Below, piece after piece: positions 1 through 49,166 of a DNA stretch of 64,000 nucleotides. The notes beneath the pieces are model-generated. The model made no database searches. It was given only the letters and a program-made list of their open reading frames with translations, and was not told the DNA's origin. Positions within the stretch are counted from its first letter, which is position 1, and each line of letters begins with the position of its first letter. The translations under genes were made by a program, and so were the position numbers. Source of the stretch: Nemophila menziesii (taxonomy: Eukaryota > Streptophyta > Magnoliopsida > Boraginales > Hydrophyllaceae); the NCBI GenBank assembly GCA_029959085.1, contig JARWIR010000002.1:63356154-63420153 (forward strand). The letters run 5' to 3'.

Positions 1-1
1 A

Positions 2-3000
2 TGTGATTTGGGGGCAAGTATCAATTTGATGCCCAAGTCAATCTTTGATAAGCTTAAAATTGGAAACGCAAGACCTACCTCTATGGTCTTGCAAATGGCG
101 GACAGGTCTCTTGCTCATCCTGAAGGCCGTATTGAGGATGTCCTTGTTAAGGCAGGTACACTGATATTTCCTGTTGATTTCGTAATTCTTGAATACAATG
201 CAGATAGAAATGTCCCCATTATTTTGGGTAGACCATTCCTAGCTACAGGGAGAACATTGATCGATGTAGAGAATGGCGAATTAACGATGAGGATACAAGA
301 TGAGGAAGTCAAATTCAATGTATTTCGAGCTATGAAATTCCCAGATTCTCAGGAAGATTGCTTCAGAATGGATGTAGTAGAGCAAGCATCGCAAGAGGTA
401 TTTAATTGTTTAAATTTTGATGATATCTTGCAGGCTGCTTTGACATTAGATTCACCTGAGATGATGGAGGAGCTTACAGAAACAGTGGCAGCTCTCAATT
501 CTGAAAATCCGAAGTATAGGCTTCTTGCCTATGAACCTGTGAGAGAACCGGGGGAGATTATTCCTAAAAAGAAGCCTTCAATTGAATCTCCTCCAGAATT
601 GGAAGAAAAACCATTGCCAGCGCACTTGAGGTATGCGTATTTGGGTACTAATGAAACTTTACCTGTTATTGTTTCAGCTAATTTAACAGGTCCTCAAGAA
701 GATAAACTGTTGCGTGTGTTAAGAGCCAACAAAGAAGAAATAGGTTGGACAATTGCTGACATCAAAGGCATTAGTCCATCCTATTGTCAACACAAAATCA
801 TACTTGAAGATGTTAATGCACGCTTAGTTGAAGGTCAGAGAAGATTAATGCCATCTATGAAGGATGTGGTGAAGAAAGAGGTGATCGAGCTTTTAGATGC
901 GGGGATTATTTATCCCATTTCGAGTAGTGAATGGGTGAGTCCGGTTCAGTGTGTACCAAAGAAAGGAGGAATGACAACAGTTTTGAATGATAAAAATGAA
1001 GCGATTCCTTCAAGAACGGTAGTTGGATGGAGAGTTTGTATGGACTACAGAAAGCTGAACAAGGCCACTAGAAAAGATCATTTCCCTTTGCCCTTCATCG
1101 ATCAAATGTTAGATAAGTTAGCCGGAAGAGAGTACTATTGCTTCTTGGATGGTTACTCCGGGTACAATCAGATTTACGTGGCTCCAAAAGATCAACGTAA
1201 GACTACCTTTACATGCCCATTTGGTACTTTTGCATATCGCAGAATGCCATTTGGGTTGTGTAACGCTGCCGCTACTTTTAAAGGTGTATGATGGCCATCT
1301 TCTGGGACATGATAGATAATTTCCTTGAAGTGTTTATGGATGATTTCTCCGTGTTTGGTGATGATTTTGATATATGTTTAGATAACTTGGAGAAAGTGTT
1401 AGTGAGATGCAAGGAAACAGATTTGGTGCTCAACTGGGAGAAGTGTCATTTCATGGTTCGCGAAGGTATTGTTCTGGGTCACAAAGTTTCGAGTGCTGGT
1501 TTAGAGGTTGATAGAGCAAAGATAGAGGTCATTAAAACTCTTCCCCCTCCTGTTTCTGTTAAAGGGGTAAGGAGTTTTCTTGGCCATGCTGGCTTTTATA
1601 GGCGTTTTATAAAGGATTTTTCTAAGATTGCTAAACCGTTATGCAACTTACTCGAAAAGGATTGCAAATTCCTTTTTGATGAAGCGTGTTTAGCGGCCTT
1701 CAAAGCAATCAAAGAAAAGCTTATTTCTGCGCCTATAGTGTTACCTCCATATTGGAATTTACCGTTTGAGGTTATGTGCGATGCGAGTGACTTGTGTATG
1801 GGAGCTGTATTGGGACAGAGAAAAGAGAAAGTTTTTCATTCAATTTACTATGCTAGTAAAACTTTTAGTGGTGCTCAGATTAATTACACAGTTACAGAAA
1901 AAGAGCTACTAGCAGTTGTATATTCATTTGATAAATTTTGCTCTTATCTTCTTGGAGCGAAAGTTATTGTTTATACAGATCATTCCGCGACCAGATTTCT
2001 TATGGAGAAGAAAGATGCGAAACCAAGGTTAATCAGATGGGTGTTATTGCTTCAAGAGTTCGATTTAGAGATCAAAGATAGACAGGGTTGTGAGAATCAA
2101 GTGGCAGATCATCTATCGTGTTTAGAGGGTTCAGAGATGAATAGTGGTACTGAAGCGGTTAGAGAAGAGTTTCCTGATGAGAGTTTATTCGTTGTTCGAG
2201 ATTATGAGGCTCCATGGTATGCAGACATTGCGAATTTAGTGGTGAGTGGTGTTTTTCCTGAAGGTTCTACTTATCAAGAAAGAAAGAGGTTAGCTCATCG
2301 TGCTAGACAGTTCTTTTGGGAGGATCCTTTCCTCTATAAAGTTTGTGCTAACCAAATGATACGAAGATGTGTAGCAAGGGAAGAGACTCAAGCAATTATA
2401 GCTGGATGCCATGATTCACTATATGGAGGACATTTCAAAGGCGATAGAACTGCTGCGAAGGTATTTCAATCAGGTTTTTACTGGCCTTCTCTTATTAAAG
2501 ATTGTCATGAATATGTTAAGAAGTGTACGAGATGCCAATTTACCGGAAACATATCTAAGAGGGATGAGATGCCGCGTAATAATGTGTTAGAGGTTGAGAT
2601 ATTCGATGTTTGGGGCATAGACTTTATGGGTCCTTTCGTTCCTTCAAATGGTAACCTCTATATCTTATTAGCTGTTGATTATGTGTCTATATGGGTAGAA
2701 GCGGTGGCTTTACCTACCAATGATTCACGAGTGGTGATCAAGTTCTTGAAATCACATATTTTCACTAGACATGGCACACCTAGAGTGATTATTAGCGATG
2801 GAGGATCTCATTTCGTTAATAAATATCTGAAGACTGTTCTAGAGAAATATGGAGTTAGACACCGTGTATCTAATGCATATCATCCACAATCCAATGGTCA
2901 AGCTGAAGTTTCGAACCGTGAAGTCAAGTCAATCCTAGAGAAAACCGTTGGTCCTACAAGAAAAGATTGGTCAATGAAGTTAGATGATGCGTTGTGGGCC

Positions 3001-3519
3001 TATCGTACTGTGTTTAAGACTCCAGTTGGTGCATCTCCCTATCGTATGGTGTATGGTAAGGCTTGTCACTTACCTTTAGAGCTTGAAATGGGTGCCTATT
3101 GGGCAATTGCGCAGTTGAACTTAGATCCTATCTTAGCCGGAAAGAATCGTATGATGAAGCTTAATGAACTTGATGAATTCCGATTGCATGCTTATGAAAA
3201 TGCCAAACTTTACAAAGAAAACACAAAGAAATGGCATGACAATCGGATTCGTCCAAAGAACTTTGAAGTGGTGCAAAGAGTATTGAAATATAACTCAAAG
3301 TTCAGCAATTATCCGGGTAAGTTAAGATCTAAGTGGTCAGGTCCATACATTGTGACCAAAGTTACACCTCATGGGGCGATAGAAATAGAACATCCGCTAG
3401 AGAAACGTACCTTTATGGTTAACGGTCACAGATTGAAGATATACCATGGAGGTGAAGATACCAATCGCTCGGAAGATCCACATCCCGGGGAGGTCATGTA
3501 TCTCCTCGAGACTCCTTAG
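2..3519 (+). pseudogene. Athila pol (protease, RT, RNase H, integrase), frameshifted and cut by the window edge
   Basis: The reading frame enters at the protease active site (CDLGAS). It continues through RT up to 1291, where one lost base near 1276 (TTTTAAAGG where copy B has TTTTCAAAGG) shifts the frame. The second frame then runs from about 1277 to the stop at 3517-3519. Visible motifs: [13 protein letters not shown] and FMDDFS; RNase H VMCDAS and YTDHS; integrase HHCC finger ending KKCTRCQ; DDE core with [16 protein letters not shown] and [10 protein letters not shown]-terminal SGPYIVTK. Changes relative to B include NAAATF for NAPATF and VSIW for VSKW. The frameshift should abolish full polyprotein synthesis, so this copy is probably dead for pol while still nearly full length. 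Confidence 0.93.
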
Positions 3520-3749: not shown

Positions 3750-4296
3750 GAGAAACCGGGAACCCTGTTTCGCAAAACCGGGAACCCGGTTTTGGAGCTG
3801 GTACCACCCTCTTCAAACGCAACACTTGGCGTCTCGGTTAACGACACAGCGTCGGAACCGGGTACCCAGATTTTCGAAACCGGGGACCCGGTTTTGGTGC
3901 TGTAGTTTCTGAAAAGTTCTGACCCAGCGTTTTGGTGGCTTGCGTTTTCGTGCGTTTTGATTCGCGCCATCGACACAAAACCGAGAACCCGCATTTGGCA
4001 GAACCGGGTACCCGGTTTCGGAGCTGTAAAAATTCCAATGTTCTGACCCGGCGTCTTGGAGTCCTGCGTTTTGGCGCGTTTTGACTCGCGCCATCGAGAA
4101 AAATCCGGGAACCCGCATTCCACAGAACCGGGTACCCGGTTTCAGCGAGTAAAATCTCTGACCCCGCGTCTTGAGATCCAGCGTTTTGGTGCGTTTTGAA
4201 AAAAAAAAAGAGTCCATAATTGTTTTTCCGCGCCGTCACAGCGACGCGGAACCGGGAACCCGGTTTGCCAAAACCGGGAACCTGGTTTGAAAGCTG
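3750..4296 (+). repeat. Array of about ten CCGG palindromes in pairs
   Basis: About ten copies of an imperfect palindrome of the form AACCGGGTACCCGGTT or AACCGGGAACCCGGTT, arranged as five pairs (near 3752/3776, 3855/3879, 3970/4004, 4101/4125 and 4249/4272). The central part is a degenerate tandem repeat of about 121-125 bases that also carries the phrase GCGTTTTGATTCGCGCCATC and a CATTTGG-type link between partners. The same array lies at the same place in B (27878-28403). It is rich in CG and CHG sites, unlike its AT-rich surroundings. Confidence 0.9.
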
Positions 4297-4364: not shown

Positions 4365-4414
4365 ACCAATAGCCTCCCCACCTCCGAAATTCATCTACCA
4401 AAACACTATATATC
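4365..4414 (+). promoter_or_regulatory. Putative internal promoter of the env-position ORF (CCAAT and TATA)
   Basis: ACCAAT at 4365-4370 and CTATATATC at 4406-4414, about 267 bases before the ATG at 4681 and directly downstream of the palindrome array. The same pair is present in B on the minus strand (27751-27800). The spacing fits a plant RNA polymerase II promoter with an untranslated leader. This is inference from motifs only; the ORF could instead be expressed from a spliced LTR transcript. Confidence 0.4.
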
Positions 4415-4680
4415 ATCAAATCCTACCCTCTTTCACCACAAAAACATAAGATCAACTCACCTCCTCTCCAAAATAACATCAAATCCTTAGTTTTTTCCCA
4501 ACATTCTTCTTCACCCAATTCCTTAAATTAAACCCAATTTTTTCTTCTCCCACACAAATTAACCAAGACCCATCTCATATTTCACCTAGTTCTTAAATTC
4601 TTAAACCTCAAAACATCAAAATTCTAAACTTTTCGCTAAGTTTTTCATTATTTGAAGTTTTGAGTTTGGGGTGAAAAGAG

Positions 4681-5996
4681 ATGACTAACAGAACCGGTGA
4701 TTTCCGAAGAACTGCTCCAAGAAGGAAAACCACCATTGGTGGTTCCCAAGACCAAGCTATTGAGATTCCTGATTCGCGTCCTAAACGTAAGATTGATGAC
4801 ACTAAGCTTGACTCTAACAGAAAAGAAATCACTGGTCAAAAGAGAAGATTGATTGATGAGATAGAAAGTGAGAAGGAACCAGAAGAGGAAATTGCGAATA
4901 ACATTGAGAAGGAAACTGAACAAGAGATTCCAGAAGCACCAGTTCAGAAACCTCCGCGTATGAAGATGTGGGCCCACAAGCCTAAGAGGGTTTATACTTG
5001 TTGGAATACTCAGGTTCGTGAAAGAATTGAATTTCTGAAATTTGGTGAGGAGTCGAATTTTCCTAAGGGTATTATGAGTAGTGATTACAAGGAATATGCT
5101 GTGACATGTGCTAAGTTTGGTTGGAAAGAGTTACAAGAAAGGAAGCTTGAGTTTATTCCTACTTTTGTGCGAGAATTTTATGAAGGTTTAGCCACCTCCC
5201 GTGATGCCATTGATATCCGCAAAAAGGTAGTTCCTTTCTCTATTGAACGTATTCGGAAATCCTTGAAATTACCCAACTTTTCTGGAACATGCCCCTTCCA
5301 AGAAATTCTTAATGACCCTTCTTTCGATTTTGAATCCCTTTGGGGGACCGTGCTTATTAATGGGACTAGCCCAATTCCTGAAGGAGAAAGATATCCTGGA
5401 CAGTTTTACAGCAGTAGTTTGACACCTCGTGCTAAGGTTTGGTCTCGTTTCGTAATACCCACTTTCTTTGGTATTAAACACACTTCTGAGTTGAAGAAAG
5501 AGCACATATTTGTTATTAAGTGTATTTTGGAGGATAACCCATTTGATGTTGCTAAGATCATTTATGATACAATCATGGAGTTCGCGAAATCACCAATGAA
5601 ACAACAAAATCTGAAGTTTCCTTGTACTATTACTCAGTTGTGTCTAGACGCAAAGATTCCGCGTAAGGACGCAGATATTGACATTGTTTCAGTTGGTGTG
5701 AGTATAGCTTTGAGCACAATCAAGAACATCCATGAAGAAGCAACGCGAACTACAAGAAGTCCGAGAACTCCTCAATCAAAGAAAGTGAAAACTGTACCTG
5801 AGTTGGAATCGAAGATTCAGGTGTTGGAAGAGAATCAGGGAAGATGATTGCTACCTTGGGGAACGTTACAAAAGAATTGGACCTATTGCGAAATTTAATC
5901 CTAGGCGTAAATACACTTCAAAACGCAATTTATGATGCTGTTACGCGAGATAAGGGTCCAGAACGCAACACCGATAACCAGCCTCGCGCTGGTTAA
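4681..5996 (+). pseudogene. Athila env-position ORF (putative plant transposon protein domain), C-terminal frameshift
   Basis: The frame opens at ATG 4681 (MTNRTGDFRR) and runs 388 codons to a premature TGA near 5847. A base lost in CAGGGAAGATG, relative to CAGGAGAGGATG in B, causes the shift. The remaining C-terminus (ending DNQPRAG) is readable to the TAA at 5994-5996. The first 100 residues are charged and low in complexity. Residues about 110-340 resemble the domain often named putative plant transposon protein: WKELQERK, FVREFYEGL, VVPFSIERI, KVWSRFVIP. A coiled-coil-like tail follows. No signal peptide or transmembrane segment is evident, so calling it an envelope protein is only positional. 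Confidence 0.8.
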
Positions 5997-6777: not shown

Positions 6778-6817
6778 AACCGGCAACCCGGATTCATCAA
6801 AACCGGGACCCCGGTTT
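6778..6817 (+). repeat. Isolated palindrome pair of the CCGG module
   Basis: AACCGGCAACCCGGATT, a short link, then AACCGGGACCCCGGTTT. It is one more pair of the module forming the array at 3750-4296, placed here after the env-position ORF. B has the matching pair at about 25906-25946. Confidence 0.75.
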
Positions 6818-7446: not shown

Positions 7447-9007
7447 TGATGTCTCCCTAATTGTTCTTATTTTCGACCCTTGGGAGACATCATTTTTGGT
7501 GTTTATTTAATTAATTTGATAGACTTTTGTACTAAATATTCAATAATCCGGAATTTCCTTTTTATTTCTAGCATTTTTAATTTATTAAACTTTTGCGCGT
7601 AATATTGGTATTTTTAGTGTAAAGTTTACAGGTTTTAGATGCTAGCTAGGAGAGGAATCCGAAGAGAAAGTCAAAGATCGTGAATTAGAGTCAAGACTTG
7701 AAGATAAATCCCGAAGATATTATTTTTAGAGCTGAAAATCCATTTTCCAGGCCATAGATTGCTGATTTCGAGGTGCTTAAGCGATGATTTAGCTGTTTAC
7801 CTTTGAAGAGAAAACATTCCTTATCGAGTTACGGAACTTTAGAAACTGGAATGAGGTCAATCGGAGTCATAACACATCGGGAAAAGCCGTTTTAGTGAAG
7901 GTGTATCAGCAGTTACGGGATTTTGGGCTTAGAAATTGGGCTTGGACATTTAATTAATATTCTATTTTCTGGTCCAAGCCCTAGAACGAATTTATGCTTA
8001 TAAAAGGAGGTCTGGACTTCTATTTTTCATACAATTCACATTCCACAAGATTAAACACCAGAGAGAAGCAACAGAAGGAAGAAAGAAGAAGCTACAAGAG
8101 CTGGAGTGGGTCTATAGCTCCGTTCGTAGTCATTCCAATTCCGGAAATTAGGTTCTTTTTATATTTTAATTTTGTAAACAATATGAATTCCATTTCTTTT
8201 AATTTTGTTTTTAATTTTAATATGAGCTAAGCTTTTCATAGTGCTTGAGAACAAACAATGGGTGAATCTTAATTTTATGAAATAACGAATGTTGAATTTG
8301 GGTTTATATTAAATTAAATTAGATTGGGTCTATTACTCTTTTCGATAATTTGTTATTATTTACTGATTTTAGAGTCGCGAACTAAGATTAGGTATTAGTA
8401 TCTAAGTTATTCCACATATGTGGCATGTGGATCATCCTGACGGAGGGTTTAGGTATAGAATTAATTATTCAATCTAGGATAAAAGCTATTGATTCTGACG
8501 AATTTAGCTAATTCTAGGGCCAATGAGGTAAAACACTTAAACATCCAATGGTAGATCATATTTACCCTGACGGGACTAGTGACACTTTAGGATCGCCTTA
8601 TAGTCCACCCTGACGGGGGTATAAGGAATTTAGAATCCCGACCATTGTAATTGACCAATTTAGCCCTTAAACAACATAAGTTAGGAAGTAAGATTAGGAG
8701 GATCCTTGCGTTCTCAAGTACTACATCTCACATTGCGTTTTCACTTATTTTACTTGCGTCTTAGCTTTTACTTGCATTTTAATATTTGTCTTTCATTTAG
8801 TAGTTTAAAAAAACAAAACCAAACAAACATTTTATTATCTTTTACTTTTATAAGTGCATCAATCACTACTTGCTAAACATTGTGATCAACCATCCGTCCT
8901 TGGAACGAATCTGTATTATCATACATACTACTTGGGACAACCGTACACTTGCGGTTGTGGTTCGATTAGCATATGCATTTATTTTTAGAACACACAAAGG
9001 ACCACCA
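7447..9007 (+). repeat. 3' LTR of element A (1561 bp)
   Basis: Starts TGATGTCTCCC right after the PPT and ends GGACCACCA. The length equals both LTRs of B. A TATA box, TTATAAAAGG, lies near 7999-8008, so U3 is about 560 bases and transcription should start near 8030. Downstream, a CCTGACGG motif occurs three times (about 8436, 8574 and 8609). The copy differs from B's LTRs at many sites, so A belongs to an older insertion or another sublineage. Confidence 0.93.
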
Positions 9008-9495: not shown

Positions 9496-10552
9496 ATCGT
9501 TCTTGTTTGGGTGTTTTCTAATCTTCATTTTATCACTTGGTTTTTATGTGTCTTATTGAAGTTGTTTTAGACTATTTGCTATGTTTATGCTTTAATTGCT
9601 TTTGGGTCCGTGTTTTGGACATTTAGGATGTTATTGCTACTTGGTTTAATTTGGATATTTGGTTTAGTATGCTATGGTGTTTATTTTGGATATTAAATGT
9701 TTAGTTGCTTCTATTTTATGCTTTGGATGTTATATAATTGTGTTGATATTGCTAACATTTTCCTTGATGATATAGGTACTATTGCTCTCTTATCCTTGAT
9801 CTTATTCTATATTGCTTTTTAGTCCCTATAGTTTGTTCAAATTTGTCTTTGTTCTTAAAATGGTTGAAAAATGCACTTAGGTCCCTAAAAGATTTTTCAA
9901 ATTGCTTTTGAGTCCCTGAAACTTTTTGAAAAATAATTTTTATCACCTATACTTTTCAAAAATTACATTTTACCCCTAAATTTCTTAAAAATGACTTCAA
10001 ATATTTTTCTAGGGAGAAATTGTAGATCAAAATTTTACAAAATTGCAACAAACTCTATGCATTGTGTAAGGGGGAGTTTTTGTTAAATCATATTTAAAAA
10101 CTCAAATGCTTAGGCTAATCATTAATCTCAATATATTGCAACTAATCGTTTGTGTCATTAGAAAGCATATGAAATGAAAATCTATCGATCAAGGAGTTGG
10201 TAAAAAGTCTCTATCTCTTAGCTCTTACAATTATCTATCTTTGTGCATCTCTTTCTAAAATAGTTTTAATCTCTAAACTCTTGCACACTCTTAGAATCGT
10301 TGTTTAAAATCTATTCACTTGAGTTTTAGCTCTTCTTCCTTAGTTATGGATTATACATTTATTTCATCTTTTCGATGAAGACAAAGGGGGAGAAATATGT
10401 GCACTAAAACTTTCAAAATTTGCACTTTACAAAACTCACAAATGCATATCGTTTTCATAAAAATACACTTTGACTTAATGCTTTTTGTGAGGGGGAGTTA
10501 GACTCCATATGTATTTTAGTGATTGATTTGTCATCATCAAAAAGGGGGAGAT
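9496..10552 (+). other. Untranslated 3' region of the copia element
   Basis: AT-rich, no coding potential seen. It carries four AGGGGGAG purine tracts, the last adjoining the LTR at 10540-10552. Multiple such tracts before the LTR are usual in SIRE-like copia elements. Confidence 0.6.
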
Positions 10553-11883
10553 TATTGGCATATTGCCCCCATCGATTAGGTGTTTTAATGTGACAAATCC
10601 TCTATTGTTTAGTGTGCTAATTTTACTTTATTATCTTGCACTCTAATTCATCAAAAAGCACAATTGACATCATTTAGATCAAAGCTTTATTATCATATCC
10701 TTAGTAGCTAATTTTCATACCATTACTTTTAACCTTATCTTGTGTGTACATTGAGAATTAGCTTTCATGATCAACAACAAAGTTTCTTAAAATGATGTTT
10801 ACTACAACTCTCGTGAAGATAACTTTTCCATCCGACCAACGAATCAAAATATCAAATATTCCAAGTCAGTAAGAACCGGGTACCCGCATTTGATAAAACC
10901 GGGAACCCGGTTTGGTGAAGCTCAAGTCAACATCAAGTCTTTATAGCCGTTTTATAGCCGTTGCAATTGAAACCGGGTACCCGCATTTGGGAAACCGGGA
11001 ACCCGGTTTGGAACAAAGTTTACCACCAACTTTATATCCGTTGGGGACTTTCTTGTGCTATAAATATGGCCTCTTTGAAGGAGAAAATTACCTCTCACAC
11101 TTCAACTATTATACATATCATTCTCCTACAAAATTAGAGGTCTCAAGCTATCAAAGTTAATCATCCAAGCTTGATCAAGAGCTTAAACCAATAAGCTTCA
11201 AAGTTATTATCTACTCAAGAGGAGTTTACATGCTTATAGTTATATCTACTCTTTAGGAGATTATCTAGCAAAGTTGTTTGCACCCCTTTAAACACTTTGT
11301 ATCTATCCTCTTAAGTCTAGGTCTTGTAATAGATAGATTAAGAGAGAATTCAAGTATAGGGAGTATACTTGGTGTCCTTGTGTTGTGATTACACAAGAGT
11401 TTCCTTCGTGGTTTCGAAGAGGTTGTCCTTCGTGTTATCGAAGAGGTTGTAAGGGTTATTGTGTTCTCGACCCGGTTAAGAGAGACACAGGAGCTTAGTG
11501 AAAAGCTTGAAATCCTAAGGAGGCTTCCTTAGGTAGTGGATGTAGGGAAACCGAACCACTATACATCATTGTGTACTTTCTATCCCTACTCTATTTACTT
11601 TCCGCACTTTTTATGTTTGATTACTTGCTAGTATAAATATCGTAATAATGTTTATCTAGTTAATCAACCTATTGCCATCTAGAGTAGTAAGAAAATAGAA
11701 ACTCGTTTTACTTGTTAAACTTATATATTGAACCTCTAACTTATCCTTTGCATGATCCCATAAGTGTTTGATATATTAGTTGACTTAGAAGTTTCTTTCA
11801 TAAACTTATAATTGTCCAAAAGATTTTTAATTAGGCATTAATCTTATTAGTAATCCTATTCACCCCCCCTTCTAGGACTTTCA
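10553..11883 (+). repeat. Copia 3' LTR (about 1331 bp)
   Basis: Begins TATTGGCATATTGCC just after the PPT; TG is probably mutated to TA. Ends CTTCTAGGACTTTCA, a familiar copia LTR end. A TATA box (TATAAATA) lies at 11059-11066. Two palindrome pairs sit 50-190 bases upstream of it. TTTCGAAGAGGTTGTC-type sequence occurs twice near 11412-11448. The next five bases, GAATT, should be the target duplication; the partner copy is outside the window. Confidence 0.75.
10873..11011 (+). repeat. Two CCGG palindrome pairs in the copia LTR
   Basis: Pair 1 (about 10874-10914) and pair 2 (about 10971-11011) both read AACCGGGTACCCGCATTTG, a short link, then AACCGGGAACCCGGTTTGG. The GCATTTG link and the partner order match the array in gypsy element A (for instance 3970-4024). 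They lie directly upstream of the LTR TATA box. Confidence 0.85.
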
Positions 11884-23333: not shown

Positions 23334-23719
23334 CCGAGGTAACTCGTCTAACTTTGAAAGAGGTTAAACAAAAGTGCCCTTTGAGAGACATCCCATAGTA
23401 ATTTTTTATGTTTTTATGTTTTTTAGTTTTAATTAGTTTAGTTGTTTTTAGTTGATATTGCGTATTTGAGAAAGGTATTAGTGTTTTTGGATGTTAGGTA
23501 TTAAAGAAATCGAGTCTGGGAAGCAAAAAAATGAAATGTTTCGGAAAAATCAGGTCACAGCACCGGTACACCGGGCCCTAGGGCCGGTATATCGCAGGTC
23601 AAAAACCCGTGCCCACGGGTATCGCCACGCGTCTAATGCCGAGAGGTAAAATTTGGAAAAGTTGCCCACCGGGTACCCGGTCACACCACCGGTAACCCGG
23701 TCAGGCAAAAAGGGGTGCC
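23334..23719 (+). other. Element C post-pol spacer, left part, with CCGG palindromes
   Basis: A weak post-pol stem (GTCT...AGAGG, one mismatch) lies at 23344-23364, followed by GTTAAACAAAAG. From about 23560 to 23705 there are palindromic phrases CACCGGTACACCGGGC, CCGGGTACCCGG and CACCGGTAACCCGGTC. The spacer is interrupted at 23719 by element B, with GTGCC (23715-23719) duplicated at 35966-35970, and continues at 35971. Confidence 0.75.
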
Positions 23720-25316: not shown

Positions 25317-26743
25317 TAAAACAAAACAAAGGGGTAGAAGTAAACGTATAAACACATAGAAGCTAGCAAATAAACCCTAAAGCAATTCTCAAAATAAATC
25401 TCATATAGCAAACTCTAGAAACTAATATACACATACACTAATCATGCAACATCAAACATAAATTATCTCAATCATAAAATTAAAGTCGCAATGCTTGAAG
25501 GTTACACTTGTACTCATCTCTGTATGATGGCTATAGGGTGGTCATTAATCCTAACTCGCTTTGAACGCTCCACCTAGTGTATTCCCTATCAACAGAATTA
25601 TAAATTCACTATGCACTTAGGAATCACGAGGTCTTTACGGTTATAATATTGGCTTAAGGACGGGTGTGGATGTATATTTGGTAAATTTGAAGTGAGCTTT
25701 TGGCTCTCTCCTCACTTACCATCAACAATGTCCTCGAGCTTGAGTTAACGCTCAAAAAGATGTTCTCACTCACCCATATACGCAACAATTTAGCGTCCCA
25801 TGTCTACCCACTATAAACAAGATGATTTCAGAAAAATTCCACTTTACCGGATGTTTTATTCATTCATTTTTTTTTCTTTTTCTTCTTTTTTTTTTGTACA
25901 GGAGCAAACCGGGTTCCCGGTTTTGAAGAATCCGGGTTCCCGGTTCCTACTATATGATTTTTCAAAATTTTTCATTTTTTTTTTTTTCATTTTTCTTCAT
26001 TCCCGGCAAAGGGTTACAAGTATATATCATCTGCAATTGTGCTACAATACAAAGCACATCGATCCCTACCCATTTAATTCCCCATATGTGGTCCCACCAA
26101 CCCAAACTCAAGCTCGAGACATGTCTCAGGATTGTGATTCAAGTGCGGGTCATATGGTAATGCCTAATAATCTAAGGGATAATGGCTTATATCGTGGCTA
26201 CAAAGAAAAGGCTAAAGGCTCAAAGTGGGCTAAGACGGATAATAATTAATATAAGGGATAGAAGGCTAAAAAGGCACAAATGGCTAACAAAGAACTGCCC
26301 CTATCATTTTCCTAAGTACATAGCTTGTCTTTAGTTCATATCTAGGTGGGTTCTCTACTAATTAGGATTTCACGTTCTACACACCAAACATATTCCTTGA
26401 GTACAAGCTTACTTCATTTGCATTGTTAATTAATTTTTCCTATCAATTACCTATGTTCGCATGCAATTGTAAGTGCGTTTTATATCAATCCCTAAAGTCC
26501 ACTATTTACTATCATAGATTTATCAAAAGTATGCTTAAAGGGATATTTAAAAATTTCTATAGTCCAACGCAACTCCGAAAATTCTTTTATTGAAAGCAAA
26601 TAAAGCAAATAACACATAAAAACTGGGATGAGGTAACGAACCCCACCCCAAACTCAAAAATGAGTCGTGTCCCCACGACTCGAAAAGACTCAATAAAGCA
26701 TTTAAACTAATATACACTAAGAGGAAAGTTTAGAAAACGTATC
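25317..26743 (-). other. Long 3' region of element B
   Basis: Collinear with 5997-7410 of A, no gene. It contains the palindrome pair (about 25906-25946), GAGACATGTCTC with a PPT-like tract (26081-26127), and the perfect GAGTCGTG hairpin with its PPT-like tract (about 26637-26681). Confidence 0.65.
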
Positions 26744-27484
26744 TTAACCAGCGCGAGGCTGGTTATCGGTGTTGCGTTCTGGACCTTTATCTCGCGTAAC
26801 AGCATCATAAATCGCGTTTTGAAGTGTATTTACGCCTAGGATTAAATTTCGAAGCAGGTCCAATTCTTTTGTAACGTTTCCCAAGGTAGCAATCATCCTC
26901 TCCTGATTCTCTTCCAACACCTGAATCTTCGCTTCCAACTCTGGTACAGTTTTCGCTTTCTTTGATTGAGGAGTTCTTGGACTTCTTGTAGCTCGTGTTG
27001 CTTCTTCATGGATGTTCTTGATTGTGCTCAAAGCTATACTCACACCAACTGAAACAGTATCAATATCTGCGTCCTTACGCGGAATCTTTGCGTCCAAACA
27101 CAACTGAGTAATAGTACAAGGAAACTTCAGATTTTGTTGTTTCATTGGTGATTTCGCGAACTCCATGATTGTATCATAAATGATCTTGGCAACATCAAAT
27201 GGTTTCTCCTCCAAAATACACTTAATAACAAATATGTGCTCTTTCTTCAACTCGGAAGTGTGTTTAATACCAAAGAAAGTGGGTATTATGAAACGAGACC
27301 AAACCTTAGCACGAGGTGTCAAACTACTGCTGTAAAACTGTCCAGGATACCTTTCACCTTCAGGAATTGGGCTAGTCCCATTAACAAGCACGGTCCCCCA
27401 AAGGGACTCAAAATCAAAAGAAGGGTCATTAAGAGTTTCTTGGAAGGGGCATGTTCGTCGGAAATCACCGGTTCTGTTAGTCAT
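26744..27484 (-). pseudogene. Env-position ORF of element B with a large in-frame deletion
   Basis: 246 codons from ATG (27482-27484). The first ten residues, MTNRTGDFRR, are followed directly by TCPFQETLND, which is about residue 205 in copy A. Roughly 195 residues, including FVREFYEGL and VVPFSIERI, are therefore missing. A short GAAC homology at the join suggests a deletion during repair or reverse transcription. The rest keeps KVWSRFIIP and SELKKEHIF, and has the true C-terminus (ELEAKIQVLEENQERM ... DNQPRAG) that A loses by frameshift. Whether the shortened protein works is unknown. No membrane segment is seen. Confidence 0.8.
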
Positions 27485-27750
27485 CTCTTTTCACCCCAAA
27501 CTCAAAACTTCAAATAATGAGAAACTTAGAGAAAAAGTTTAGAATTTTGATGTTTTGAGGTTTAAGAATTTAAGAACTAGGTGAAATATGAGATGGGTCT
27601 TGGGTAATTTGTATGGGATAAGAAAGAATTGGGTGTAATTTAAGGAATTGGGTGAAGAAGAATCTTGGGAAAAACTAAGGATTTGATGATATTTTAGAGA
27701 GGAGGTGAGTTGATCTTATGTTTTCGTGATGAAAGAGGGTAGGATTTGAT

Positions 27751-27877: not shown

Positions 27878-28403
27878 AAACCGGGTTCCCGGTTTTGGCA
27901 AACCGGGTTCCCGGTTCCGCGTCGCTGTGACGGCGCGGAAAAATAATTGTGGACTTTTTTTTTTTTTTTTTTTTTTTTCAAAACGCACCAAAACGCTGGA
28001 CCCCAAGACGCGGGGTCAGGGATTTTCTTCGCCGAAACCGGGTACCCGGTTCTGTGGAATGCGGGTTCCCGGATTTTCTCGCTGGCGCGAATCAAAACGC
28101 GCCAAAACGCAGCACCTCAAGACGCTGGACCAGAACTTTTGGATGTTTACAGCTCCGAAACCGGGTACCCGGTTCTGCCAAATGCGGGTACCCGGATTTG
28201 TGTCGATGGCGCGAATCAAAACGCACGAAAACGCAAGCCACCAAGACGCTGGGTCAGGGAATTTCAGAAATCACAGCACCAAAACCGGGTACCCGGTTTT
28301 GCCAAATGCGGGTTCCCGGTTCCGACGCTGTGATATTACCCAAAAACGCCAAGTGTTGCGTTAAAATGGTTGGTACCAGCTCCAAAACCGGGTTCCCGGT
28401 TTC
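27878..28403 (-). repeat. CCGG palindrome array of element B
   Basis: Pairs of AACCGGGTACCCGGTT / AACCGGGTTCCCGG-type palindromes near 27880/27903, 28036/28063, 28160/28185, 28284/28307 and 28386. The central units are spaced about 124 bases apart. Same place and structure as 3750-4296 in A. Confidence 0.9.
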
Positions 28404-28636: not shown

Positions 28637-31600
28637 CTAAGGAGTCTCGAGGAGATACATGACCTCCCCGGGATGTGGATCTTCCGAGCGATTGGTATTT
28701 TCACCTCCATGGTATATCTTTAGTCTGTGACCGTTAACCATAAAGGTACGGTTCTCTAGCGGGTGTTCTATTTCTATTGCCCCATGAGGTGTAACTTTGG
28801 TCACTATGTATGGACCTGACCACTTAGATCTTAACTTACCCGGAAAATTGCTGAACTTTGAATTATACTTTAATACTTTTTGCCCCACTTCAAAGTTCTT
28901 TGTACGAATCCGATTGTCATGCCATTTCTTTGTGTTTTCTTTGTAAAGTTTAGCATTTTCATAAGCATGCAATCGGAATTCGTCAAGTTCATTAAGCTTC
29001 ATCATACGATTCTTTCCGGCTAAGATAGGATCTAAGTTCAACTGCGCAATTGCCCAATAGGCACCCATTTCAAGCTCTAAAGGTAAGTGACAAGCCTTAC
29101 CATACACCATTCGATAAGGAGATGCACCAACTGGAGTCTTAAACGCAGTACGATAGGCCCACAACGCATCATCTAACTTCATTGACCAATCTTTTCTTGT
29201 AGGACCCACGGTTTTCTCTAGGATTGACTTGACTTCACGATTCGAAACTTCAGCTTGACCATTGGATTGTGGATGATACGCAGTAGATACACGGTGTCTG
29301 ACTCCATATTTCTCTAGAATAGTCTTCAGATATTTATTAACGAAATGAGATCCTCCATCGCTAATAATCACTCTAGGTGTACCATATCTAGTGAAAATAT
29401 GTGATTTCAAGAACTTGATCACCACTCGTGAATCATTAGTAGGTAAAGCCACCGCTTCTACCCATTTAGACACATAATCAACAGCCAATAAGATATAGAG
29501 GTTACCATTTGAAGGAACGAAAGGACCCATAAAGTCTATGCCCCACACATCGAATATCTCAACCTCTAACACATTATTACGCGGCATCTCATCCCTCTTA
29601 GATATGTTTCCGGTAAATTGGCATCTCGTACATTTCTTAACATATTCATGACAATCTTTTATAAGAGAAGGCCAGTAAAAACCTGATTGAAATACCTTTG
29701 CAGCAGTTCTGTCTCCTTTGAAATGTCCTCCATATAATGAATCATGGCATCCAGCTATAATGGCTTGAGTCTCTTCCCTTGCTACACATCTTCGTATCAT
29801 TTGTTCAGCACAAACTTTATAGAGGAACGGATCCTCCCAAAAGAACTGTCTAGCACGATGAGCTAATCTCTTTCTTTCTTGATAAGTAGAACCTTCAGGA
29901 AAAACACCACTCACCACTAAATTCGCAATATCTGCATACCACGGAGCCTCATAATCTCGAACAACGAATAAACTCTCATCAGGAAACTCTTCTCTAACTG
30001 CTTCAGTACCACTATTCATCTCTGAACCCTCTAAGCGCGATAGATGATCTGCAACCTGATTCTCACAACCCTTTCTATCTTTGATCTCTAAATCGAACTC
30101 TTGAAGCAATAACACCCATCTGATTAACCTTGGTTTCGCATCTTTCTTCTCCATAAGAAATCTGATCGCGGAATGATCTGTATAAACAATAACTTTCGCT
30201 CCAAGAAGATAAGAGCGAAATTTATCAAACGAATATACAACTGCTAGCAACTCTTTTTCTGTAACTGTGTAATTAATCTGAGCACCACTAAAAGTTTTAC
30301 TAGCATAGTAAATCGAATGAAAAACCTTCTCTTTTCTTTGTCCTAATACAGCTCCCATACACAAATCACTCGCATCGCACATAACCTCGAACGGTAAATT
30401 CCAATCTGGAGGTAACACTATAGGAGCAGAAATAAGCTTTTCTTTGATTTCTTTGAAGGCCGCTAAACAAGCTTCATCAAAAAGGAATTTGCAATCCTTT
30501 TCGAGTAAGTTGCATAACGGTTTAGCAATCTTAGAAAAATCCTTAATAAAACGCCTATAAAATCCAGCATGGCCAAGAAAACTCCTTACCCCTTTAACAG
30601 AAATAGGAGGGGGAAGAGTTTTAATTACCTCTATCTTTGCTCTATCAACCTCTAAACCAACACTCGAAACTTTGTGACCCAGAACAATACCTTCGCGAAC
30701 CATGAAGTGACACTTCTCCCAGTTGAGCACCAAATCTGTTTCCTTGCATCTCGCTAACACTTTCTCCAAGTTATCCAAACATATATCAAAATCATCACCA
30801 AACACGGAGAAATCATCCATGAACACTTCAAGGAAATTATCTATCATGTCCCAGAAGATGGCCATCATACACCTTTGAAAAGTAGCGGGAGCGTTACACA
30901 ATCCAAATGGCATTCTGCGATATGCAAAAGTACCAAATGGGCATGTAAAGGTAGTCTTATGTTGATCTTCTGGAGCCACGTAAATCTGATTGTACCCGGA
31001 GTAACCGTCCAAGAAACAATAATATTCTCTTCCGGCTAATTTGTCTAACATCTGATCAATGAAGGGCAAAGGGAAATGATCTTTTCTGGTGGCCTTGTTC
31101 AGCTTTCTGTAATCCATGCAAACTCTCCAACCTACTACCGTTCTTGAAGGAATCGCCTCATTTTTATCATTAAGAACTGTTGTAATTCCTCCTTTCTTCG
31201 GTACACACTGAACTGGACTCACCCATTCACTACTCGAAATGGGATAAATAATCCCCGCATCTAAAAGCTTAATCACCTCCTTCTTCACCACATCCTTCAT
31301 GGCTGGCATTAATCTTCTCTGACCTTCAACTGAGCGTGCATTAACATCTTCTAGTATGATTTTGTGTTGACAATAGGATGGACTAATGCCTTTGATATCG
31401 GCAATTGTCCAACCTATTGCTTCTTTGTTGGCTCTTAACACACGCAACAGTTTATCTTCTTGAGGACCTGTTAAATTAGCTGAAACAATAACAGGTAGAG
31501 TTTCATTAGTACCCAAATAAGCATACCTCAAGTGTGCTGGCAATGGTTTTTCTTCCAACTCCGGAGGAGATTCAATTGAAGGTTTCTTTTTAGGAATAAT

Positions 31601-34270
31601 CTCCCCCGGTTCTCTCACAGGTTCATAGGCAAGACGCCTATACTTCGGATTTTCAGAATTGAGAGCTGCCACTGTTTCTGTAAGCTCCTCCATCATCTCA
31701 GGTGAATCTAATGTCAAAGCAGCCTGCAAGATATCATCAAAATTTAAGCAATTAAATACCTCTTGCGATGCTTGCTCTACTACATCCATTCTGAAGCAAT
31801 CTTCCTGAGAATCTGGGAATTTCATAGCTCGAAATACATTGAATTTCACTTCCTCATCTTGTATCCTCATTGTCAATTCGCCATTCTCTACATCGATCAA
31901 TGTCCTCCCTGTAGCTAGGAAGGGTCTACCCAAAATAATGGGGACATTTCTATCTGCATTGTATTCAAGAATTACGAAATCAACAGGAAATATAAGTGTA
32001 CCTGCCTTAACAAGGACATCCTCAATACGGCCTTCAGGATGAGCAAGAGACCTGTCCGCCATTTGCAAGACCATAGAAGTAGGTCTTGCGTTTCCAATTT
32101 TAAGCTTATCAAAGACTGACTTGGGCATCAAGTTGATGCTTGCCCCCAAATCGCATAGCGCTTTTCCCTTCCATTCTTCTCCAATCGATATGGGAATCGT
32201 GAAACTCCCCGGATCAACTAACTTCGGAGGTAATTTGCTCTGGCAAATCGCACTACACTCTTCCGGAAGGCCAATCATCTCATTATCACAGTAGGGCCTT
32301 TTATTAGTGAGGGCCCTCTTCAAAAACTTCGTATACTTAGGAATATCTCGAATTGCCTCAAGTAACGGAATATTAATACTCAAACCCCTCACTCTATTGA
32401 AGAATTTCTGAAAATCACCCATATCACCCTTTTTCTGAACTCGCGATGGAAACGGTGGTGGAGGGCGATTGCTTACAATTTCATCTCTCTTTTTCGGAAT
32501 TTCTCTTGGTCTTTCTATCTCTTCAACCTCACTATCTTTCTCATTCTCTTTCTCTTTCTCACCCACTTCCTTTTCTTTTCTTGGGACTTCTTTCTCTTTC
32601 ATAACGGGAAAAGGAGGTGGAGGGAGGTTCTTACCACTTCTTAATGTAACAGCCTTGCAATCTTCACGTTGTGTTGGATCTTCCGTATCGCTAGGAAGTT
32701 GCCCTTGTGGACGCTGATTCAGCTGTTTATTAATTTGACTTAGCTGATTCTGGAAAATCTTCATATTTGCTTCAGCTGCGTTTTGACGTTCCAAAGCTTG
32801 TGTTTGAAGAGCAATCAAATTTTCAACGGTTTTCTGAAGGGTAATTACTCCTTCTTGTGGATGGGCAGGTAGAGCTTTCTGGTTTAAATTCTCATCGTAG
32901 GTATTCTGAGGAGCTTGTCTTTGCACATAATTGTTTTGATTCTGTCCTCCTTGATGATGGTTATGTGGTCTTGGATTATAGTTGTTGCCTTGAGTACGCG
33001 GCTGATACGCGTAAGTAGGATTGGCTGCCCCATTAGGATTTGAGTATTGAAACCCAGGATGGTTTCTGTTAGGCTGATATCCATTACCACTTGAATTGAA
33101 ATTACCTCTATTGGACATAAAATTCACTGATTCTTGGTTATTCGGACAACTTTCCTCATCATGATCATCTACCTTACAAATTGAACACATATAAACCTCT
33201 TGTGCAGCATGCACAGCTACCTTCTTACCCGAAAATCCTTCTTTCACAGCTAGAGTAAGCTGCTTCAATTGTTGCTCTATGGTATTCTGGATCTTATTCT
33301 CAAACGTAGCAAATTTCTCTTCTATGTCAACATTATTTACTCCCTTGACTGGTGTTCTTACTGAGCTCCACCCAACTTCATTCTTGACTGTTCTCTCTAA
33401 AATGATCTTGGCATGAGCGGGTTGAACTTGAAGAAAACCTGCTCCACATAGCGTATCCAATTTCTCTCTTGAAATTCCATCAAGGCCTCTATAAAAGATC
33501 TTTAACTGTTGTTGTTCTGAAAAGCCATGATTAGGAACTTTACGCAAACACATCTGAAATCTTGTCCAACTCCTACCCACAGTTTCCTCATACTCTTGAC
33601 GGAATTGTGTCAATTCTAGTTCAGCATCTAACCTCATGTTACTTGGGTAATACCTGTCAAAGAAAGCAATTTCTAATTGGTCCCAATTAGTAATCTTCGT
33701 AGGATCTTGCGTATCGTGCCATTCACTTGCTCCATCAATGACAAAGAATTTGAAAGCAGCAAAATACATCTGTTCTCTTGAAACCCCTTGTGTGATATAA
33801 GAATCACATATCTGTTTGAATTTCTGTACCGCTCTAAGAGGATCTTCCGATGGTCTTCCGCGAAAATTTCCAAAGTTTTGGAACTGAGCTAGCATACCCG
33901 AATCTGGACGGAATCTCGGAACATTAATATCTGGAGCACCTACTCCTATAGCTGGAGCGCGGAATGGAACTTCTGGAGGGCCATTAGTGAACCACGGATC
34001 ATGATTCATCACTATCTGGACTGGAGGATTAGGATTTAATGGTTGAACTTGAGGAATAACGCCTGGAGCTAAAGGTTGGCCATTTGCATCTAACTGGCCT
34101 TGTCCATTCTGTTGACCTTGAATAATGATATTCTCCATTCTGTTACTTAATTCTTCTACTTCTAAAGCTTCTCGTTCTCTTCTTCTTCTGTTCGCAAGTC
34201 TGATCAACGATTCTGGATTACTAAGGATCGGAGGTGTTGGCTCTAGATCCTTGAATAGCCTTCTTCGCAT
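28637..34270 (-). CDS. Gag-Pol polyprotein of element B, uninterrupted (1877 aa)
   Basis: One open frame from ATG (34268-34270) to the stop at 28637-28639, about 110 bases after the primer site. Order by residue: gag core about 115-300 ([31 protein letters not shown]); CCHC knuckle [14 protein letters not shown] at 362-375; Gln/Asn-rich and charged linker to about 620; protease with DLGAS at 707-711 and [11 protein letters not shown] about 960-1200 with FMDD at 1150-1153; RNase H from about 1295 (CDAS, YTDHS); integrase HHCC finger about 1508-1550; DDE residues D1579, D1638 and E1674; GPY at 1819-1821. All catalytic motifs are present. Fusion of gag and pol in one frame is usual for Athila-type elements. 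Processing by the internal protease is expected from the family. Confidence 0.96.
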
Positions 34271-34380
34271 ACACCAAACCTAAAAACCTGAAAAAGCTAA
34301 CAAACAAAAAGCGTAAAACTGATAAAATAAAATAAATGCACTTATCACTAAAGGATAAACACCGTGGTCACACGCTACCG

Positions 34381-35970: not shown

Positions 35971-36508
35971 CACGTGTTATGACTCGGGTATTTTGATGTA
36001 ACATGGACCTGGAAGAACCACAGCTCCGGTATACCGGGCCCTACGGCCGGTATACCACCCGACACTGCTGGAGAGAGGAAATTTTCGCGTTTTTCAGGTT
36101 ACAAGGGTGAGAAGGTTGCTCAATTACGAATTTTTCAATCCTTAAGCTTCACTTTCTTCTCCAAACCTCTCCCAACTCCATTAAAGCTTCAACAAACCTT
36201 CACCCAACATCAAAACACTACCAAATCACCATGAATTCACATCCAAATCCTTCCCTACATCATTACAAAGAATATTCAAGCACCCAAATCATATCAAAAC
36301 ACCTAGAAACCAAGAGTCAAAACCATGAATTTCTAAATCTTTTCCCAAAAATCCTTAAACCCACATCATTAAAGCTTGATTCTATCATACCCACATAGAA
36401 AATCATCATCATAACACCTTTCCTAGCCCAAATAAAGCTTGTTCCACCTATGATCAAGAGTTACAAACTTCAAGAGTGTTCAAAGCTTTGAGTTGGGGGT
36501 CAAAAGAG
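35971..36508 (+). other. Element C spacer, right part
   Basis: Continues C after element B. It holds CTCCGGTATACCGGGC and GCCGGTATACC (about 36022-36052), an A+C-rich stretch like that before the env-position ORF in D, and TTTGAGTTGGGGGTCAAAAG just before 36509, a PPT-like tract. No gene. Confidence 0.7.
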
Positions 36509-37042: not shown

Positions 37043-38608
37043 TGATGTCTCCCTAATTGTTCTTATTTTCGACCCTTGGGGGAGCTCATTTTTTGTGTTT
37101 ATTTGATTAATTTGATAGACTTTTGAGTTAAAAATGCAATAATCCGGAATTCCTATTCTATTTCTAGTATTTTTAATTTATTAAACTTTTGCGCGTAATC
37201 TTGTGTATTTTAGTGAAAAGTTTGTAGGTTTTGGATATTATCTAGAAGTGGAATCCGAAAAGAAAGTCAAAGATCGTGATATGGAGTCAAGACTTGAAGA
37301 TAAATCCCGAAAGAATTCGATTTTAGAGCTGCAAATCTGTTTTCCAGGCCAAATATTGCTGATTTCGAGGCGCTTAAGAGATGATTTAGCCGCTGACCCT
37401 TGAAGAGATTAGATTCCTTATCGAGTTACGGAACTTTAGCAAGTGATTTCAGGTCAATCGGAGTTATAACGAAGCAGGAAAAGCCGTTTTAGTGAAGATG
37501 CTGCAACAGTTACGGGATTTTGGGCTTAGAAAATGGGCTTGGACATTTAATTAGTGATTTATTCTTAAGTCCAAGCCCTAATCCGTTTTTCCACTTATAA
37601 AAGGAGCCTTTGACTTCTATTTTCAGAACAATTCACTTTTTACAAGATAAAACATCAGAGAGAAGCAACAGAAGGAAGAAAGAAGAAGCTGCAAGAGCTG
37701 GAGAGGGTCTATATCTCCGTTCTCAGTCATTCCAATTCCGAAAATTAGGTTTCTTTTATCTTTAATTTTGTAAGACAATATGAATTCCATTTTATTTAAT
37801 TTAGTTTTCTTTTTAATTAGTATGAGCTAAATACATTTTAGTGCTTGAGAATGCTTTATGGGTGAATCCCAATCCTATTGAATTTCATATGTTGGATTTG
37901 GGTTTCTGTTAAATTAAATTAGATTGGGGCTTTTACTCTTTTCGATAAATTAAGATTATTTACTGTTTTTAGAGTCATGAACTAAGAACAGGTGTTAGTA
38001 TCTAGGCTATTCCAATTAGTGGCGATTGGATCATCCTGACGGAGGGTTTAGGTACAGAAATATTTATTCAATCTAAAATAGAAGCTATTTATTCTGACGA
38101 ACTTAGCTAATTTTAGGGCCAATGTGGTAATTAACTTAAACATCTAAAAGTGGATCATATTTACCCTGACGGGACTAGTGACACTCTAGGATAGCCTTGT
38201 AGTCCACCCTGACGGGGGTATAAGGAATTTAGAATTCCGACCATTGTAATTGACCAATTTAACCCTTAAACAGCATAGGGTATGAAACAGGATTAGGAAG
38301 ACCCCTTGCGTTCTCAAGTGCTATCTTCTCATACTTGCGTTTCACATTTATTTACTTGCGTCTTAGTCTTTAATTACATTTTCCATTTAGTATTTCATTA
38401 CTTAGAATAATAAAAACAAACAATCAAACATTATATCTTTATTTGCTTTCCTAAGTGCAACCATTCATTATTCGATAAGCATTGTAGTTAACCAAACCGT
38501 CCCTGCGAACGATCCTAGAATCACTTATTACTACTTGGGTCAACCGTACACTTGCGGTTGTGGTTCGATTACTTTTGCATTTATTTTAGAACACACAAAG
38601 GACCACCA
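37043..38608 (+). repeat. Solo LTR of the A/B family (1566 bp) inside element C
   Basis: Complete LTR from TGATGTCTCCC to GGACCACCA, with a TATA box near 37595-37604. Its flanks are AATTT (37038-37042) and AGTTT (38609-38613), a target duplication with one change. The uninterrupted order of D (GCTAATTTTAATTTC near 50270) confirms the insertion point. It is more diverged than the B LTRs. It was probably formed by recombination between the two LTRs of a former full element. Confidence 0.9.
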
Positions 38609-48149: not shown

Positions 48150-49166
48150 TAAATAAAAGTGTTGTACGGGAGACAACCCGCAATTTTTTTTTTATGTTTT
48201 TATGTTTTTAATTTATGTTTAGTTTAGTTTTTTTAGTTGATATTGCATATTTTAGAAAGGTATTAGTGTTTTTGATGTTCAGGTGTTAAATAAATCGAGT
48301 CTGGGAGAAAAACGGAATTTTCGAGCATGTTCTGACCTGCCACCGGCATACCGGGCAATACTGCCGGTAAGCTGTCGGGTCAGAAACACGAGCCCTCGGT
48401 TACTCGTCACGTATTCTATGCCGAGAGGTGAGTTTCGAAAGCAAGCAGCACCGGTATGCCGGTCAGACCAAAACCCGAGCCCACGTGTGTACGCTTCGTG
48501 TTTTTTGCCGTAACATGATTTTCAAGGAAAAGCAGCACCGGTATGCCGGTCCATATGGGCAGTATACCGGCCAGCGCCGCTGGAGAGAGAAAAAAGTTGT
48601 ATTTTTAGGTTATAAGAAAAAGTAAGATTAGTCTATTGCGAATTTTACAATCCTTAAGCCTCTCTTTTTTCTCCAAACCTCTCCCAACCCCATTAAAGCT
48701 TCATCAAACCTTCCCCAAACATCAAAATACTACCCAATCACCATAAAAACACATCAAATCTTCTCTCCACATCATTACAAAGAAGATTCAGCCACCCAAA
48801 TCATATCAAAACACATTGACTTGAAGAATCAAAAGCTTAAATTTTCAAAATTCATCCTACAATTTCTTAGATCCACACCAATTCATCTTACACGCATAGT
48901 GATTCATCATCAAAACACCTTTCCTAACCCAAATAAAGCTTGATCAACCAATAATCAAGAGTTTCCATTTTCAAGAGTGGTTAAAGCTTTGAGTTGGAGG
49001 TTAATTGAGATGACTAAAAGAACAAAAACATTAGATACTAAGAGGGAGATGAAGAAAAAAAGGTATTGGGTTCTATTGAGAAGAAATCAAGTGAGTAAAG
49101 TGTAGTTCCAACACAAAGGGTAAGATAGATATTGTAAAGAGAGGTGAGCTAGCTTCGTTCAATTTT
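48150..49166 (+). other. Element D spacer with diverged CCGG palindromes
   Basis: Palindromic phrases CACCGGCATACCGGGC (about 48341), CACCGGTATGCCGGTC (48450 and 48536) and GCAGTATACCGGCC (48560) lie at 48340-48590. An A+C-rich leader-like stretch follows. TTTGAGTTGGAGGTTAATTG stands just before ATGACT at 49010, the ancestral start of the env-position ORF. Otherwise no gene. Confidence 0.75.

Follow-up and report, generated by a model that had tools for sequence, protein, structure and literature searches.

How does one short DNA module come to stand in two superfamilies of LTR retrotransposons, and what might it do there? The question is raised by a 64,000-nucleotide stretch of the Nemophila menziesii genome (the window), in which a Ty3/gypsy element (element A) and an inverted relative of it whose gag-pol frame is complete (element B) carry arrays of CCGG palindromes, and a Ty1/copia element carries such palindromes in its LTR. 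An earlier note on this DNA had described ten palindromes in pairs in element A and two pairs in the copia LTR, and both are found (Table 1); its statement that the two families have the same module, with the same partner order and linker, is supported, and its proposal that the module was exchanged, captured or selected fits the occurrence in both superfamilies. The answer that we favor, with moderate confidence, is that the module is a promoter-proximal pair of sites for a dimeric protein, similar to the RM boxes of Sireviruses, and that it was passed between the superfamilies as a cassette of ~40 bp.

Abundance and geometry of the palindrome pair

The palindrome does not occur by chance. 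The 16-letter form is found at 14,466 exact forward places in the whole 1.5 Gb genome (control, 0), and the half-site form ACCGG-N4-CCGGT at 35,732 places (control, 140); in the window, 54 matches were counted on both strands with up to 3 mismatches, compared with a mean of 0.15 in shuffled sequence. The genome-wide count disposes of a possibility that the earlier note had allowed for, that is, that the motif is confined to these few copies. The spacing of the half-sites is fixed: exact ACCGG-Nk-CCGGT has 19 occurrences in the window at k = 4 and none at k = 0–3 or k = 5–8, and the fetched loci, many of which were themselves selected by the motif, contain 121 exact occurrences at spacing four versus 0 (half-site spacing was counted locally over spacings 0–24). 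The N4 spacing is also constant across the palindrome versions of the Athila-like elements.

Most palindromes in the sampled loci are paired, with partners 22–23 bp apart; this distance is found in 132 of 138 modules, a module being two sites 20–25 bp apart. The pairing scan was built on the A-type 16-mer, and the count excluded the duplicates L001–L006, L021, L022, L024, and L025; 33 of 307 sites have no partner at up to 4 mismatches, and many of these are plain look-alikes.

Two adjacent palindromes might also act as RNA, that is, the pair might be a hairpin or small-RNA feature (a source of siRNAs, or a packaging or dimerization signal). The folding energy is −19.6 kcal/mol for each of two 39-nt modules, and the palindromes of maize Sireviruses are small-RNA hotspots according to work cited in two papers (PMC10760457, PMC5311732). 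However, complementary partner centers are found in 8 of 61 Athila modules and 2 of 72 copia modules, fewer than the 13.4 and 20.5 expected if the centers are independent (5 of the 138 modules, with weak cores, were dropped from these counts); the inner arms mismatch (GCAT facing AACC); and, since the copia LTR pairs precede the TATA box, they should be absent from the 5' end of the genomic RNA. Because the partner centers are unmatched, this explanation is the weaker one, and we consider it very unlikely. A dimeric DNA-binding protein fits better the fixed CGG-N4-CCG dyad, its doubling at about two helical turns, and its position near TATA boxes.

The elements that carry the pairs

We name elements A and B Athila-like from the layout of their frames: in B, gag, RT, RNase H, and integrase share one frame and an ORF that matches PF20167 follows pol, that is, a third ORF of the Athila kind follows a Ty3-type gag-pol. 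The earlier note had given B the same array as A; the array is present, on the minus strand, but with nine palindromes, one partner having been lost. It had also described a particular link as occurring often in A; the link is present, but the exact GCATTTGG is found in one of the five A pairs (at 3979) and in two B pairs (at 28159 and 28283). Both arrays stand upstream of the TATA-like TATATATC. Element A contains 12 palindromes in total, and none was found in its Athila-like LTR (7447–9007). The third ORF of A (ATG at 4681) does not reach the length of the frames in L017 and L018 (440 aa). A protein search for its relatives gave none at E ≤ 0.001 among 1,581 candidates. The PF20167 ORF of B is without ~190 residues between its start and the second half of the domain; the same element has an open gag-pol frame, and its two LTRs are 0.45% apart. 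In a further Athila-like stretch (L012:4359–7205), a 1.42-kb unit is duplicated in tandem, head to tail; the two copies are 98.2% alike, and each holds a single palindrome pair.

Element A is inserted inside the copia element. It should, then, be the younger of the two, yet the LTRs of A differ by 1.1–1.5% and those of the copia element by 0.5%. Several features of the copia element are those of Sireviruses: the Sirevirus PBS TATCAGAGC follows the 5' LTR (L008:5099), multiple AGGGGGAG polypurine tracts precede the 3' LTR (four in the window copy and four in a second copy, L051), and the polyC-rich integrase signal CACCCCCC is located at 11861, near the LTR end. A copia-type gag (PF14223) is present; the 3.3-kb interior leaves no room for a copia-type pol, and L051 contains no long ORF for one. 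Because pol is missing, the element is a derivative and not a full Sirevirus. In 13 further copia LTR pairs, the LTRs are separated, start to start, by 4,655–4,710 bp (11 pairs) or 6,258 bp (2 pairs).

Each copia LTR contains four palindromes, and two more are internal (L051). The LTR pairs are located 50–190 bp upstream of the TATA box in 30 of 30 loci on many contigs. These loci are the best 30 of 41 matches (40 of 5,753 candidates were scored), and two of the loci are the LTRs of the window copy itself; all four sites are present (≤3 mismatches) in 28 of these loci and three sites in 2. The linker of pair 1 is TTGGGAA in most copies. The third, internal pair is found in L051, in L008, and in 11 of the 30 LTR loci, which extend into the element from one side only, over 1.5 kb (L024 overlaps L051). 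Behind the internal pair of L051 is an ORF with a weak match to PF20167 that spans most of the profile (E 1.1e-7, profile 3–157 of 177, 32.4 bits with a cut-off of 45); in L051 this ORF is interrupted, PF20167 is not matched by its second piece, and no TATA-like box was found between the internal pair and the ORF. The earlier note had missed that the module precedes a PF20167-type ORF in both elements, and that several palindrome versions exist.

Table 1. Coordinates of the elements, palindrome arrays, and ORFs (positions in the window unless a locus is given).
Feature	Position	Strand	Remarks
Element A pol (RVT_1, RNase H, integrase)	1–3519	+	start outside the window
Element A array, five palindrome pairs (ten palindromes)	3754–4287	+	AACCGGGWACCCGGTT type
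TATA-like box between array A and ORF, putative promoter	4407–4414	+	motif match
Element A third ORF, PF20167 'Transposase_32'	4681–5847	+	E 1.2e-26 for 4675–5847
Element A extra pair, somewhat degenerate	6778–6816	+	linker TCATCAA; between ORF and 3' LTR
Element A 3' LTR	7447–9007	+	
Stretch with four Sirevirus polypurine octamers AGGGGGAG	10069–10550	+	at 10069, 10385, 10490, 10543
Copia 3' LTR (Sirevirus-derived, pol-less)	10559–11883	+	
Copia LTR pair 1	10874–10912	+	23 bp start to start; linker TTGATAA
Copia LTR pair 2	10971–11008	+	22 bp; linker TTGGGA
Copia LTR TATA box TATAAATA	11059–11066	+	50 bp after pair 2
Element C array, ACCGG-TACA/GTAC/TAAC-CCGG	23562–23701	+	strong partners 20 bp apart at 23668/23688
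Element B extra pair	25907–25945	-	between ORF and 3' LTR
Element B PF20167 ORF, shortened	26747–27490	-	first part of the domain missing
Element B array, nine palindromes	27879–28401	-	one partner lost
Element B gag-pol open frame (Ty3/gypsy)	28637–34279	-	
Element C array beyond B, TCCGG-TATA-CCGGG	36025–36060	+	8 of 10 half-site letters
Element D array, ACCGG-TATG/CATA-CCGG	48342–48572	+	partners 21–23 bp off weak, 6–7 of 10 letters
Element D PF20167 ORF	49095–50216	+	E 2e-17; 26–27% identical to A
Element E array, TATG and CTAG centers	63425–63693	+	weak partners 21 bp away
Element E ORF pieces	L054:262–765; 925–1407		PF20167, 25.5 bits, below cut-off; no match
Sister copia LTR	L008:2441–3769	-	
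Copia 5' LTR, left of the window	L008:3770–5093		0.5% divergence from 3' LTR
Internal copia pair, outside the window	L008:6633–6671		
Internal copia pair in L051	L051:2538–2576		before ORF start at 2727

A cassette common to two superfamilies and its variability

In Sireviruses, CGG-CCG palindromes termed RM boxes have been described in the LTR before the TATA box and before ENV (Bousios 2010, PMC2829016); the same account places 77 of 79 linker copies before ENV, reports the boxes as absent from the classic Ty1/copia elements examined there, and describes a box sequence that varies from family to family (PMC2829016). In our elements, a CGG-CCG core is located upstream of the TATA box in the copia LTR, whereas the Athila-like LTR has none; extra copies are present upstream of ENV if the PF20167-type ORFs are taken as ENV (copia L051, A, and B); and where RM boxes number at least eight copies (3' LTR plus linker), copia L051 has 4 + 2. 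Unlike the published boxes, the palindromes described here are found also in Ty3/gypsy (Athila-like) elements, are paired, and in one version are common to both superfamilies. The claim to novelty in the earlier note is therefore narrowed, CGG-CCG palindromes having been published for Sireviruses (PMC2829016). What is new is the Ty3 side, that is, palindromes of the RM-box kind at the corresponding position in a Ty3 lineage; the several palindrome versions within one genome; and a copia element that carries the version of Athila down to the linker. Our searches of open-licence literature listed no title on RM boxes in Athila or on sharing across superfamilies.

The copia and Athila modules align over ~40 bp and hardly further. 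The internal copia linker, TCATCAA, is identical to an Athila linker (the chance for a random 7-mer is 7.6e-4); the copia linker TTGGGAA is one letter from Athila TTGGCAA (chance 0.0136 for a random linker), and TTGGGA is one letter from Athila TTGGCA (chance 0.054 for a random linker); once the outer arms are counted in, the nearest Athila linker to that of LTR pair 2 differs by three letters. As we read them, these matches favor exchange of a cassette over mere convergence, unless the linker itself is selected.

Two candidate sources of the pairs were considered. Gene conversion of the copia pair from a nested gypsy copy, which the earlier note had named as a possible origin, fails because the pairs are found in all 30 of the LTR loci, on many contigs. 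A MITE-like mobile unit with ACAG...CTGT ends is not favored: both flanks are present in 24 of 61 Athila modules and in 0 of 72 copia modules.

At L008:2431–3770, a sister copia LTR adjoins the copia 5' LTR and runs the opposite way; by eye, a short duplicate of the beginning of the LTR can be made out on its far side. The identity of the sister LTR to the window copia LTR is 73% over 10559–10845, 40% over 10870–11030, 70% over 11031–11090, 53% over 11091–11200, and 91% over 11201–11883; low values are thus also found around 11091–11200 (44–53%) and near 10665 (47%). The palindrome segment is the extreme of a fast-changing LTR region, and low identity is not confined to it. In the sister LTR, this segment contains blocks of the form GCGG-TACA-CCG (read by eye), which a scan for ACCGG-N4-CCGGT at 8 of 10 letters misses.

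The variability of the palindromes differs between the two kinds of elements. In ten Athila arrays, the pairwise mismatch is 2.1% in the core columns versus 13.8% between palindromes (6.5-fold), a core variability that was that low in 0 of 10,000 resamplings, and 2.1% versus 11.4% in C/G columns alone; eight of the ten copies were located by searching for the exact 16-mer, which favors intact cores, and some sites of an array may have arisen from others by duplication. A and B of the window, compared alone, differ at 3 of 72 core sites and at 40 of the 367 remaining sites (Fisher p 0.085). Across the 30 copia LTR copies, variability is no lower in the palindromes (1.46%) than in the remainder of the LTR (1.30%; p 0.73, G/C sites); at CpG sites it is lower (1.7% versus 3.3%, p 0.23). 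Since lower palindrome variability is absent in the young copia LTRs, selection is not supported there.

Tandem repeats near the 3' end are common in plant LTR elements, and the palindromes could be such a repeat: satellite-like, homogenized by duplication and without function, with the likeness of copia and Athila reflecting an old transfer, or chance and drift. The copia palindromes, which vary as much as the rest of the LTR, speak for this explanation; it does not account for an N4 spacing that is kept across versions, for Athila cores that are so much less variable than the DNA between them, or for the same ~40 bp with its linker in two superfamilies, and we judge it improbable. We return, then, to a module that would be recognized by a protein.

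Palindrome versions, the PF20167 ORF, and candidate binders

At the corresponding position, elements C, D, and E in the window carry palindromes that are related to these but not the same. In A, B, and the copia element, the centers are GWAC and the partners are at 22–23 bp; in C, D, and E, the partners are mostly weak (6–7 of 10 letters, best of up to 18 offsets), with 5 of 6 weak partners at 21 bp and one strong pair, in C, at 20 bp. PF20167 ORFs above the cut-off follow the arrays of A, B, and D, and a piece below it follows that of E; in element C, which is split by B, the array is followed by a weak PF20167 ORF remnant (tblastn E 0.001), and no TATA-like box was found there. A solo-like Athila-type LTR is located inside C at 37043–38614, and the ORF region of C is cut down. 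A/B and D differ in both ORF (26–27% identity) and palindrome version; palindrome version and ORF type appear to go together in the window, on very few elements.

Elsewhere in the genome, 12 of the 15 site clusters in the first 4.6 Mb of contig C1 were fetched, and all 12 are Athila-like (L009–L016 by similarity to A or B, L017–L020 by their ORF). A PF20167-type frame is present in 8 of these 12 loci with sites (weakly in L010); in L011, L013, and L014, pairs are present but no PF20167-type frame reaches 80 aa, and the L009 locus starts past the ORF position. The best of 150 scored PF20167 matches (L053, G000:C340:27041700-27043700; 134 bits, an open piece of 290 aa) resembles by eye a gene with introns and not an LTR element, and is possibly a domesticated copy.

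For the ORF of the A family, dN/dS is 0.10–0.34 across the 15 pairings of six copies whose frames are long and open (window A, L017, L018, L019, L020, and L052), a set that leaves out broken A-type ORFs (e.g., L010, L015, and L016); in the copia element, pN/pS is 0.21 over 11 copies (first part of the ORF). These ratios show, in both ORFs, the substitution pattern of purifying selection, and the retention of the ORF in a pol-less copia element suggests that its product helps its own element. Pol-less Athila elements of Arabidopsis are reported to keep gag and env-like ORFs under purifying selection, with ESTs that match env (PMC2410132), and the copia derivative described here likewise keeps its ORF under the same pattern; the parts of that paper that concern the env-like ORFs mention no palindrome arrays.

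The company of array and ORF suggests a protein encoded by the elements themselves: the PF20167 protein might be a nuclear DNA-binding factor, perhaps anti-silencing like VANC, the palindromes its own targets, with the copia element responding in trans to the protein of Athila. We regard this as a tentative possibility; it is a special case of the main reading, so the weights that we give to the two overlap. It would explain the usual company of the ORF, with arrays A, B, and D before PF20167 ORFs, C and E before weaker pieces, and the internal copia pair before a PF20167-like ORF (E 1.1e-7); and the fit of version to ORF in the window, where A/B and D differ in both. The low dN/dS and pN/pS also speak for it. 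No transmembrane-like stretch was found in the A or D protein, and the PF20167 protein of a sunflower Athila is predicted to be nuclear, with an NLS (PMC11728184). The targets of VANC are arrays of family-specific noncoding motifs, and binding to the 9-base motif YAGTATTAY has been shown (Hosaka 2017, PMC5735166). As in VANDAL/VANC, an element ORF is accompanied here by short, family-specific, noncoding motif arrays that diverge between related families; however, VANDAL is a DNA transposon with DUF1985/DUF287, whereas here the elements are LTR elements, the ORF is PF20167, and the motifs are palindromes that would be putative binding sites.

Several observations argue against an element-encoded binder. 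L011, L013, and L014 have pairs without a PF20167-type frame, and published Sireviruses without ENV also carry RM boxes (PMC2829016). The copia and A proteins have no significant BLAST match, yet their sites are of one version; a shallow profile comparison of the Athila and copia ORFs gave a probability of 0.7% (E 0.08). A Pfam scan of six PF20167-type ORFs or pieces found no DNA-binding or VANC domain above the cut-off (bZIP_1 at E 5.1 is noise), and DUF1985 and DUF287 are absent from its matches up to E 10; with the VANC domains missing, the PF20167 protein could at most work like VANC. The copia piece L051:2727–3602 contains one hydrophobic stretch (mean 2.01, residues 274–292), which overlaps a second frame and is probably out of frame. 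A structure model of the PF20167 protein, from a three-row alignment, reached a pLDDT of 35. The best of 150 scored PF20167 matches (L053, G000:C340:27041700-27043700; 134 bits, an open piece of 290 aa) resembles by eye a gene with introns and not an LTR element, and is possibly a domesticated copy.

Given a protein site, we lean slightly toward a dimeric factor of the host over the PF20167 protein; a host factor would explain divergent ORFs that share one version, pair carriers without the ORF, and RM boxes in Sireviruses without ENV. LOB/LBD homodimers are described as distinguishing palindromic DNA by 'molecular calipers', with GCGGCG as the recorded site (PMC10118128), and by analogy an LBD protein is a candidate host binder of ACCGG-N4-CCGGT.

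The mechanism that we propose for the RM-box-like site pair is as follows. A dimeric protein would bind CGG-N4-CCG, at two sites about two helical turns apart. In the copia element, the pair would act from its U3 position ahead of the LTR TATA box; in the case of A and B, the array would act upstream of a TATA-like box and leader that precede the PF20167 (env-like) ORF. The module would thus probably drive or open two kinds of promoter, and the ~40-bp cassette, including the linker, would have been passed between an Athila-like lineage and a Sirevirus derivative. The protein binding, the action on transcription or silencing, the exchange and its direction, and the binder are what we infer from these positions and alignments.

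The roles of the env-like genes of plant retrotransposons and of the palindromes of Sireviruses are two open questions, and whether Athila ORFs shape methylation is described in a 2026 study as still to be investigated (PMC12844716). We also consider a wider proposal, which we hold to be doubtful: the env-like genes of Athila and Sireviruses would be one PF20167 family of nuclear regulators with sequence specificity, the pairs would be their targets, and the copia element would use the version of Athila to be switched on or protected by a Ty3 protein. If true, LTR retrotransposons would have a VANC-like system that operates across superfamilies. If one palindrome system precedes one kind of ORF in both superfamilies, the two questions could be tested by a single binding matrix, in which each protein type is tried on each palindrome version, and the module would be a case of regulatory DNA that moves between superfamilies as a short cassette.
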